This document shows positions 2,825-4,022 of a DNA stretch of 64,000 bases, one piece after another; the first letter of the stretch is position 1, and each line of letters starts with the position of its first letter. The position numbers and the translations under genes are program-made. The stretch spans positions 1 to 64,000 of the forward strand of contig JAKSTU010000010.1 of assembly GCA_024402435.1 (NCBI GenBank), written 5' to 3'. Under the pieces are notes generated by a model that saw nothing but the letters and a program-made list of their open reading frames with translations, was not told where the DNA came from and searched no databases. This stretch comes from Treponemataceae bacterium (GTDB lineage: Bacteria; Spirochaetota; Spirochaetia; Treponematales; Treponemataceae).

Positions 2825-2858
2825 TCTGAATAGTGTTGAACCAGTTTTTTGAAAGATG

Positions 2859-3058
2859 TTTCGACTGCACTCACTGCGTTCGTTCCGCTCAACATGACAC
2901 ATTGGTGCACTCACTGCGTTCGTTCTGTGCAACATGACTGAGATCCTTCGACTGCGCTCAGGATGACATTTGGTGATGGTGCACAGGATGGCGTTTGGGG
3001 TTGGGGTGCCGGATGACAAAGCGGGGGATTCGCTGCATTGGTTCTATGCATCATGACA
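2859..3058. repeat. Array of 'CTTCGACTGCGCTCAGGATGACA'-type dispersed repeats
   Basis: The gap of about 500 bp (2825-3323) before mtnN begins with degenerate tandem units. GCACTCACTGCGTTCGTTC occurs at 2867 and 2907, a 40-bp period, each followed by an 'AACATGAC' tail. A hairpin unit ATCCT...AGGAT (2943-2964) and further decayed copies ending in 'GGATGACA' or 'CATGACAG' follow, up to about 3058. Translated on the minus strand these give CHPERSRR/CHVERNERSE-like strings, a hallmark of a dispersed intergenic repeat often misannotated as small proteins. No gene is supported here. A structured repeat and a small-RNA candidate fill the rest of the gap. Confidence 0.75.
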
Positions 3059-3062
3059 GGGC

Positions 3063-3154
3063 GGGGCCGGGGCTTGGGGCCGGCACCGGAGGCCCCAGGA
3101 GAATGGGGTGTGGCGAAGACTTCGGTCTAAGCCCAGGGGAAAGGCTTTTCCCCT
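3063..3154 (+). repeat. Structured repeat element, copy A
   Basis: Three consecutive potential hairpins are visible. The first is GGGGC...GCCCC (3069-3073 with 92-96 of the same hundred), followed directly by AGGAGAA. A middle hairpin is built on CGAAGACTTCG. The third is a strong stem AGGGGAAA/TTTCCCCT (3135-3154). The order and the joining sequences (GGGGCT...GCCCC, AGGAGAA, GGG, AAGC, AGGGGAA...TTTCCCC) match a second copy at 58936-59025. Neither copy ends in a clean U-tract, so a plain terminator is unlikely. The function is unknown. Confidence 0.55.
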
Positions 3155-3171
3155 CAAAATTAGGATTTAAA

Positions 3172-3230
3172 AATAAAAAAGACCGCCAAAGGAGGAGAAA
3201 AGCGGTCTTCTTTATATAATTGTTGCTGCT
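3172..3230 (-). ncRNA. Candidate small RNA with anti-Shine-Dalgarno terminator loop
   Basis: On the minus strand a good promoter (3237-3265) precedes a unit of about 59 nt ending in a perfect terminator. The stem AAGACCGC/GCGGTCTT (3202-3209 with 3179-3186) is followed on the minus strand by TTTTTTATTT. The 15-nt loop reads UUUUCUCCUCCUUUG, which is complementary to a consensus ribosome-binding site (AAAGGAGGAG). The unit lies in a gap between two plus-strand genes and cannot be the end of a known minus-strand gene. The promoter, stem and loop are seen; regulatory base pairing with mRNA leaders is inferred. The 5' end is approximate. Confidence 0.6.
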
Positions 3231-3236
3231 GATAAT

Positions 3237-3265
3237 GTTATAATGGCATTGAAAAAAAAAGTCAA
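3237..3265 (-). promoter_or_regulatory. Minus-strand promoter of the candidate small RNA
   Basis: Read on the minus strand, -35 TTGACT (3265-3260) is followed by a 17-bp spacer and -10 TATAAC (3242-3237). This is five of six matches in each box to the vegetative sigma consensus. The predicted start is near 3230. It points away from mtnN into the hairpin unit. Confidence 0.65.
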
Positions 3266-3323
3266 TGCAAAATGTTGCAAAGTTTGCAGTTTTTTGCGGT
3301 TAATTGCATTTGTGGAGGAATAC

Positions 3324-4022
3324 ATGAAAATCGGAATTATTGGCGCAATGGATGTGGAAGTATCAACTTTACAGCAACAGATGACAGATGTTGTTGTAAA
3401 AAACATTGCCCATCTGAAAGTTTATGAAGGAAAACTGGAGGGCAAGTCAGTTGTCCTTGTAAAATGCGGCGTCGGAAAAGTTAACGCTGCTTTGTGTGCA
3501 CAACTTCTGATCAGTTTGTGCGGTGTTACCCACGTCATCAATTCCGGTGTTGCAGGTGCTGTAGGTCCGGGGCTTGGCGTAATGGATCTGGTTGTTTCAA
3601 CAGACGCACTTTATCACGACATGGATGCAACCGGCTTCGGATACAAGCCCTGTCAGATTCCCGGTTTTGATACAATCGCATTCGAAGCAGATGCAGGCAT
3701 GATTTCAGCTACGCTCAAAGCTTATGCAGAAGGCGTGGAGCAGGGTGTGCTCAAGCGCAAAGCTGTTGCAGGCCGCATCGCAAGCGGTGACATTTTTGTT
3801 GACAACGCTCAGGTCAAAAAGCAGATTGTGGACAAATGCAATCCAATGTGCGTAGAAATGGAAGGTGCTGCAATTGCCCACACATGCTGGCTCAACAAAG
3901 TTCCTTTCGTGGTTATCCGCTGCATGTCAGACAGTGCGGAAAACACTGACGAAGTTTATCTTGAAGCAGAGGCCGCAGCCCAAAGTTCATGGGTAACGGC
4001 ACGCACTGTTGCTCTGCTTTAG
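3324..4022 (+). CDS. mtnN: 5'-methylthioadenosine/S-adenosylhomocysteine nucleosidase
   Basis: This enzyme cleaves adenine from methylthioadenosine and S-adenosylhomocysteine in the cytoplasm, for methionine salvage and removal of SAM by-products. The start MKIGIIGAM at 3324 has a GGAGG SD 7 nt upstream and gives 232 residues, the usual family length; the frame is open further upstream but without a site. Key features are Glu12 in GAMDVEV, the glycine-rich GVGKVNAAL and SGVAGAV segments, CVEMEGAAIAH (nucleoside-binding Met/Glu) and the catalytic Asp in RCMSDSAEN. It converges with the beta-glucuronidase gene with a 15-bp gap. Confidence 0.95.
   Translation: MKIGIIGAMDVEVSTLQQQMTDVVVKNIAHLKVYEGKLEGKSVVLVKCGVGKVNAALCAQLLISLCGVTHVINSGVAGAVGPGLGVMDLVVSTDALYHDMDATGFGYKPCQIPGFDTIAFEADAGMISATLKAYAEGVEQGVLKRKAVAGRIASGDIFVDNAQVKKQIVDKCNPMCVEMEGAAIAHTCWLNKVPFVVIRCMSDSAENTDEVYLEAEAAAQSSWVTARTVALL

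Follow-up and report, generated by a model that had tools for sequence, protein, structure and literature searches.

A conserved treponemal small RNA whose terminator loop probably masks Shine-Dalgarno sites

In Firmicutes, small RNAs of the RsaE/RoxS type meet ribosome sites with C-rich single-stranded motifs. The cuckoo or ar14 RNAs of alpha-Proteobacteria (NfeR1, SmelA075; RF02344) present invariant anti-Shine-Dalgarno CCUCCUCCC loops on freely diverging stems, and many ribosome sites are their predicted targets; NfeR1, for one, pairs at the ntrB start and so silences ntrBC (PMC10746234, PMC3927594). The LhrC RNAs of Listeria, which include rli22 (RF01457), are 111-114 nt long, come in five near-identical copies and carry three CU-rich sites with a UCCC motif; the CU-rich terminator loop is one of several redundant target-binding sites, and LhrC acts on lapB without Hfq (PMC4132741). 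The spirochaetes are nearly blank on the bacterial small-RNA map. Small RNAs of Borrelia and Leptospira are known from RNA-seq (PMC10319736, PMC5243855), a 2022 survey puts the number of distinct annotated sRNAs in the phylum at 6 (PMC9029176), and a Borrelia termination study contains no anti-Shine-Dalgarno term. Our own search of databases and literature, with most subscription journals outside its coverage, found no treponeme sRNA with such a loop described.

The window analysed here is a stretch of 64,000 nt from a Treponemataceae genome (contig JAKSTU010000010.1). Its minus strand, read directly from 3265 to 3171, runs TTGACT-N17-TATAAC-N6-AGCAGCAACAATTATATAAAG-AAGACCGC-TTTTCTCCTCCTTTG-GCGGTCTT-TTTTATTT, where TTTTCTCCTCCTTTG is a 15-nt loop at 3201-3187. 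This order outlines a small RNA (sRNA) gene with the following features and neighbours:

3260..3265, minus strand: TTGACT, the -35 element of the promoter (from the sequence; TTGACA/T in most family members)
3237..3242, minus strand: -10 element TATAAC (from the sequence; TATATT in most relatives)
Between these two elements, minus strand: spacer of 17 nt (from the sequence)
3174..3230, minus strand: predicted sRNA transcript of ~57 nt (from the -10 distance, the conserved 5' AGCAGCAA and the 3' terminator)
3220..3230, minus strand: conserved single-stranded 5' end AGCAGCAACAA with A-R-N repeats (alignments A4/A6)
3179..3209, minus strand: terminator hairpin (fold z -5.5; all 10 pairs covary in 56 distinct sequences)
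3209-3202 with 3186-3179, minus strand: stem arms AAGACCGC and GCGGTCTT, a perfect 8 bp (from the sequence)
3187..3201, minus strand: loop of the terminator, UUUUCUCCUCCUUUG, proposed as the seed that binds mRNAs (UCCUCCU in 56/56 distinct aligned loops)
3188..3196, minus strand: anti-Shine-Dalgarno core UCCUCCUUU within the loop (its CCUCCUUU equals the 16S 3' tail of relatives)
3171..3178, minus strand: U-rich terminator tail (from the sequence; across the family, on average 6.7 of the 8 nt past the stem are T)
3266..3315, minus strand: helically phased repeats of the YGCAA/TGCRA type, adjoining the -35 element on its upstream side (from periodicity and TGCRA counts)
3324..4022, plus strand: mtnN, methylthioadenosine/S-adenosylhomocysteine nucleosidase, the divergent neighbour (NCBIfam NF004079, 213 bits, cut-off 169)
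Ending at 2824, plus strand: gene for a beta-propeller protein, the left-hand neighbour

An earlier, sequence-only reading of this DNA had placed a near-consensus minus-strand promoter and a perfect 8-bp terminator stem with a 15-nt loop between two plus-strand genes. The promoter is indeed read directly at 3265-3237, stem and loop agree with the sequence, and the unit lies between the beta-propeller gene and mtnN, but the proposed length of about 59 nt gives way to about 57 nt, with a predicted start at A3230 and a predicted stop within the T run. On folding, A-U and G-U pairs lengthen the 8-bp stem to 15 pairs, and the hairpin reaches -19 kcal/mol, compared with -7.5 ± 2.1 kcal/mol for dinucleotide shuffles. 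The gene, its strand, stem, invariant loop, promoter and location are established as far as sequence and comparison among relatives can do so. With its own promoter and intrinsic terminator and without a conserved ORF, the unit has the makeup of a trans-encoded sRNA; an encoded peptide is unlikely, since 44 of 58 aligned units contain no ATG. Elsewhere in the intergenic region, at about 2850-3160, the repeats CACTGCGTTCGTT and CTTCGACTGCGCTCAGGATGACA stand beside a stretch (3100-3160) that recurs at other places in the host genome.

The treponeme sRNA shares with the cuckoo/ar14 RNAs an invariant anti-Shine-Dalgarno loop on a freely changing stem. Whereas CCUCCUCCC stands in every one of the two to four hairpins of those RNAs, the treponeme sRNA is a single hairpin, the terminator itself, with the loop CUCCUCCUUU. 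Its likeness to LhrC lies in the proposed use of a CU-rich terminator loop for target binding, but it has one such site and one copy, and it differs from RsaE/RoxS in size, motif and lineage. The sRNA fits no Rfam family, either at the gathering cut-off or at E 5: it scores 18.9 bits against ar14 (RF02344, cut-off 58.8) and 27 bits against rli22/LhrC (RF01457, cut-off 80), and the RsaE model gives no match even at E 5. Because these scores fall below the cut-offs and its anatomy differs (one hairpin, under 60 nt, with the terminator as the seed), the sRNA stands outside the ar14 and LhrC families. The RsaE parallel drawn from the sequence alone thus holds for function and not for family, the weak look-alikes in Rfam being rli22/LhrC and ar14. 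Judged by analogy, the sRNA works most like cuckoo/ar14 and also like LhrC, and is a member of neither.

To follow the unit across treponemes we compared the region with 40 related genomes using blastn, which matched each of the other six genomes of the genus, as well as five genera besides. In 7/7 same-genus genomes, and in other genera too, the cassette is preserved whole, from the promoter and the 5' end through hairpin and loop to the U tail, while the surroundings diverge. At E up to 1 a first covariance model (R1), built from seven sequences, matched 238 of the 274 genomes of the family, a count in which the weak matches include ordinary terminators; at E below 1e-5 the matches come down to about 46 genomes, spread over ten of the family's twenty genera. 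The search of relatives for promoter, stem and loop near mtnN or elsewhere, as suggested by the sequence-only reading, returns strong matches in ten genera, and loss of the loop with the flanks kept, which would have spoken against the gene, is the opposite of what is seen, as relatives keep the loop and change the flanks. With a second covariance model the host genome holds a single copy (E 1.9e-13), the other matches inspected there being ordinary terminators without UCCUCC. We aligned 58 matches, comprising 56 distinct sequences, and found UCCUCCU invariant in 56/56 distinct loops, whose length ranges from 15 to 20 nt. As the structure guided the alignment and loop-favouring models recruited its members, loop invariance beyond the genus is partly due to selection; cleaner evidence comes from the within-genus blastn set, whose loops do not vary either. 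Scanning GTDB genomes for the pattern gave 119 stretches, mostly chance matches, and among 80 of these a long stem with a U tail occurred in treponemes only (Treponema sp. UBA1240 and AS21ysBPME_133 among them); phage records contained no match to the region. That all parts, from promoter and 5' end to covarying stem, invariant loop and U tail, stay linked through the family befits the dedicated minus-strand gene that had been proposed, rather than a leftover terminator. The sRNA gene is almost certainly real, and the sRNA is a new family conserved in gut, rumen and oral treponemes.

The 16S rRNA gene is absent from the host assembly, and the 16S tails were taken from relatives; in complete family genomes the 16S rRNA ends in GGATCACCTCCTTTCT. 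Loop and tail are identical in CCUCCUUU, which upholds the original description of the loop as an anti-Shine-Dalgarno sequence, and they differ in the base before CCUCC, which is U in 56/56 loops and A in the 16S rRNA. The loop can therefore form the ribosome's own pairing plus one extra pair with GGAGGA. Because the loop has CCUCCUUU exactly as the 16S tails do, pairing with Shine-Dalgarno sites is its likeliest action, and we are fairly confident that the sRNA acts at ribosome sites. In the mechanism we propose, a trans-acting RNA of about 57 nt would be transcribed from its own vegetative-type promoter, and its terminator hairpin would also be its working part, with a stem that needs only to be a stem in order to present the UCCUCCU loop. 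This loop, a copy of the 16S 3' tail with one change, would pair with AAAGGAGGA-type, purine-rich Shine-Dalgarno sequences, and the pairing would block 30S binding and lower the translation of a limited set of mRNAs. Here transcription, pairing, repression and the identity of the targets are what we infer from the sequence. That the locus encodes a genuine conserved minus-strand sRNA, with a loop most likely masking the Shine-Dalgarno sites of such a limited set, is the reading we favour and consider probable. It predicts that deletion of the sRNA raises the translation of mRNAs with AAAGGAGGA before the start codon.

Possible targets are few. In the window, AAGGAG precedes 8 of the 48 called genes and AGGAGG precedes 2, so that the "many" AAGGAG sites of the sequence-only reading become a moderate number. 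The loop pairs with 13 of the 48 window start regions beyond the 5% point of random 45-mers, although such better-than-random pairing is expected of any 16S-tail mimic. Across the 2.62-Mb genome AAAGGAGGA occurs 9 times, one occurrence being the sRNA gene itself, and three sites precede an ATG, namely those of cstA (Pfam CstA, 434 bits), of a nitroreductase and of a 20-codon ORF that precedes an ABC exporter. Duplexes of the loop with these three sites have predicted energies of -14 to -19 kcal/mol, the best being a 15-nt match at the 20-codon ORF (-19 kcal/mol). Because long loop matches are rare in the genome, a small and a broad set of targets are equally likely, and a broad global role for the sRNA is possible. 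Among the loop-matched ribosome sites of seven genus members we saw no obvious common gene in a partial target prediction, confined to searches and short stretches. When the full sRNA was cofolded with candidate targets, the stem mostly persisted and little or no interaction appeared, a result to which we give no weight because the method cannot represent loop-loop pairing.

The 20-codon ORF itself (MDIATRTARKIYCFSGVRPI; L101 1501-1582, G000:C59) has AAAGGAGGAG as its ribosome site, sits some 120 nt upstream of the MsbA-like ABC exporter and is possibly a leader peptide; as a conserved target it was rejected, having no blastn match in relatives. In the host genome AAAGGAGGA is also rarer than the reversed word (9 vs 23), and several congeners are without such a shortage before ATG.

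A real sRNA could also use its loop elsewhere, either as a mimic of the 16S tail that binds a ribosomal or other RNA-binding protein, or as a sponge for purine-rich RNA. The exact CCUCCUUU of the 16S rRNA in the loop, the small number of AAAGGAGGA sites in the host genome and the search for conserved mRNA targets, which found none, would all suit such a role. However, the invariant U before CCUCC, in place of the A of 16S, fits pairing with GGAGGA better than copying, and the anti-Shine-Dalgarno loop sRNAs that have been studied act on mRNAs (PMC10746234, PMC4132741), which leaves action elsewhere unlikely.

Masking of Shine-Dalgarno sites by a minus-strand sRNA agrees with the way the stem has changed. 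The stems are widely unlike (GACCGC/GCGGTC, ACCGTACCGC/GCGGTACGGT, CCACCCGC/GCGGGTGG, CGGGGCGC/GCGCCCCG and others), yet all ten stem pairs vary on both sides somewhere with 99.6% of cells paired, and the covariation score is 0.682 as against 0.199 when shuffled and at most 0.20 with slid partners. Read on the minus strand the stems contain 36 G-U pairs and 1 A-C, the latter being what would be G-U on the plus strand, and this count sets the minus strand as that of the RNA. The hairpin could in principle be an ordinary intrinsic terminator, serving the plus-strand beta-propeller gene or both directions, with a purine-rich loop by chance; its stem also precedes TCTTTATATAATT on the plus strand, and the beta-propeller gene upstream ends 350 bp from the hairpin. 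But the conserved promoter and 5' end lie immediately upstream on the minus strand, the G-U pairs set the strand, the loop stays while the stem is rewritten, and the neighbours vary except for mtnN, all of which makes a mere terminator very improbable. It is equally hard to credit that the plus strand is the conserved unit, with an AGGAGGA-loop hairpin forming a site for a CsrA-type protein upstream of mtnN: the plus-strand loop AAAGGAGGAG resembles a CsrA site, but the G-U count, the promoter and the U tail all belong to the minus strand, and the distance to mtnN varies from 93 to 363 bp.

A promoter score of at least 10 out of 12, taken as the best match within 133 nt upstream, is reached by 35 of 58 members and by 4% of control stretches, and the spacer is almost always 17 nt. 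Upstream of the -35 element, CAA-type words (TGCAA, CGCAAAAA) recur with a period of 9-10 bp (peaks at 9-10, 19 and 29), at a z of about 9-15 that is inflated by kinship among the sequences, although the period recurs in widely differing ones; TGCRA is present in 40/52 upstream regions and in 13% of random stretches. The phased array is probably an activator site, a repressor site or an UP-like element, with a putative binder. The sRNA is divergent from mtnN in 49/49 loci with mtnN inside the fetched stretch, at a distance of 93-363 bp, while the far-side gene is on the same strand in 34/58 loci and on the opposite strand in 22/58. Least probable of all is thus a cis-acting leader or attenuator of the next gene on the sRNA strand, since, even though the longest downstream frame is on that strand in 34/58 loci, the far-side gene stands on either strand, is convergent in 22/58 including this window, where there is nothing to lead, and no common downstream gene was seen. 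On the G-U strand signal and the convergent or varying neighbours we rejected leftover terminator, cis leader and plus-strand CsrA site alike. The minus-strand -10 element TATAAC overlaps a plus-strand TATAAT (3239-3244) that faces mtnN, as in bidirectional promoters; in relatives the mtnN start lies up to 363 bp away.

Runs of A-R-N triplets, as in the 5' end of the sRNA, are what Hfq binds elsewhere. In 32/58 members the 5' A-R-N run is matched in length by at most 5% of shuffles, and Hfq was not found: PF17209 gave 0/40 among the relatives with controls positive, a search that a very divergent Sm-like protein could still escape. Judged from these 40 relatives, the sRNA thus comes from genomes in which an encoded Hfq, as expected for an Hfq-dependent sRNA, was not seen. 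For comparison, a Borrelia paper withdraws the Hfq label of the candidate gene bb0268 (PMC10319736). A conserved sRNA of under 60 nt with a definite seed and no recognisable Hfq would be a case of anti-Shine-Dalgarno control that arose independently of the alpha-proteobacterial and Listeria ones.

T. denticola-type genomes have similarly built units at two other places, away from mtnN:

G065:C1:516135-516195: L320, sRNA-like unit
G068:C1:1528741-1528815: L321, sRNA-like unit

These have the consensus promoter TTGACA-N17-TATATT, a differing 5' part ACACAGAA(AA)GATACACA and terminators with UCCUCC loops such as CUUUCUCCUCCUUUU and AUAUCCUCCUUUU. No such sRNA neighbours mtnN in G065 (2,843,201 bp), which we take to be T. 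denticola ATCC 35405, or in G059 (1,139,633 bp), presumably T. pallidum, and covariance-model searches found no unit in G059. The T. denticola-type units are likely a relative of the mtnN-linked sRNA, and tests are practical in these genomes. A bolder proposal, which we hold to be doubtful, would make the sRNA an Hfq-independent, family-wide global regulator of translation: a minimal terminator hairpin carrying a movable copy of the 16S tail that contends with the ribosome at the strongest Shine-Dalgarno sites, under the control of a helically phased operator, tied to mtnN and with paralogues in T. denticola-type oral treponemes.

Outside the Treponema family but within the order, matches of the model R2 are few and weak (36-41 bits), in a search set without Borrelia and Leptospira genomes. 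Two of them in genus g38 of another family (L322 and L323; 36-40 bits) show a conserved TATACTGTTTATTATAGTACATTCCTCC leader followed by a long stem with the same loop, and are possibly distant relatives. Finally, six members of the alignment (L060, L070, L081, L085, L163 and L168) have an apparent extra small hairpin, for example CTTCCGTTGGAAG, that follows the AGCAGCAA 5' end and precedes the terminator, which turns them into a longer, two-hairpin version.
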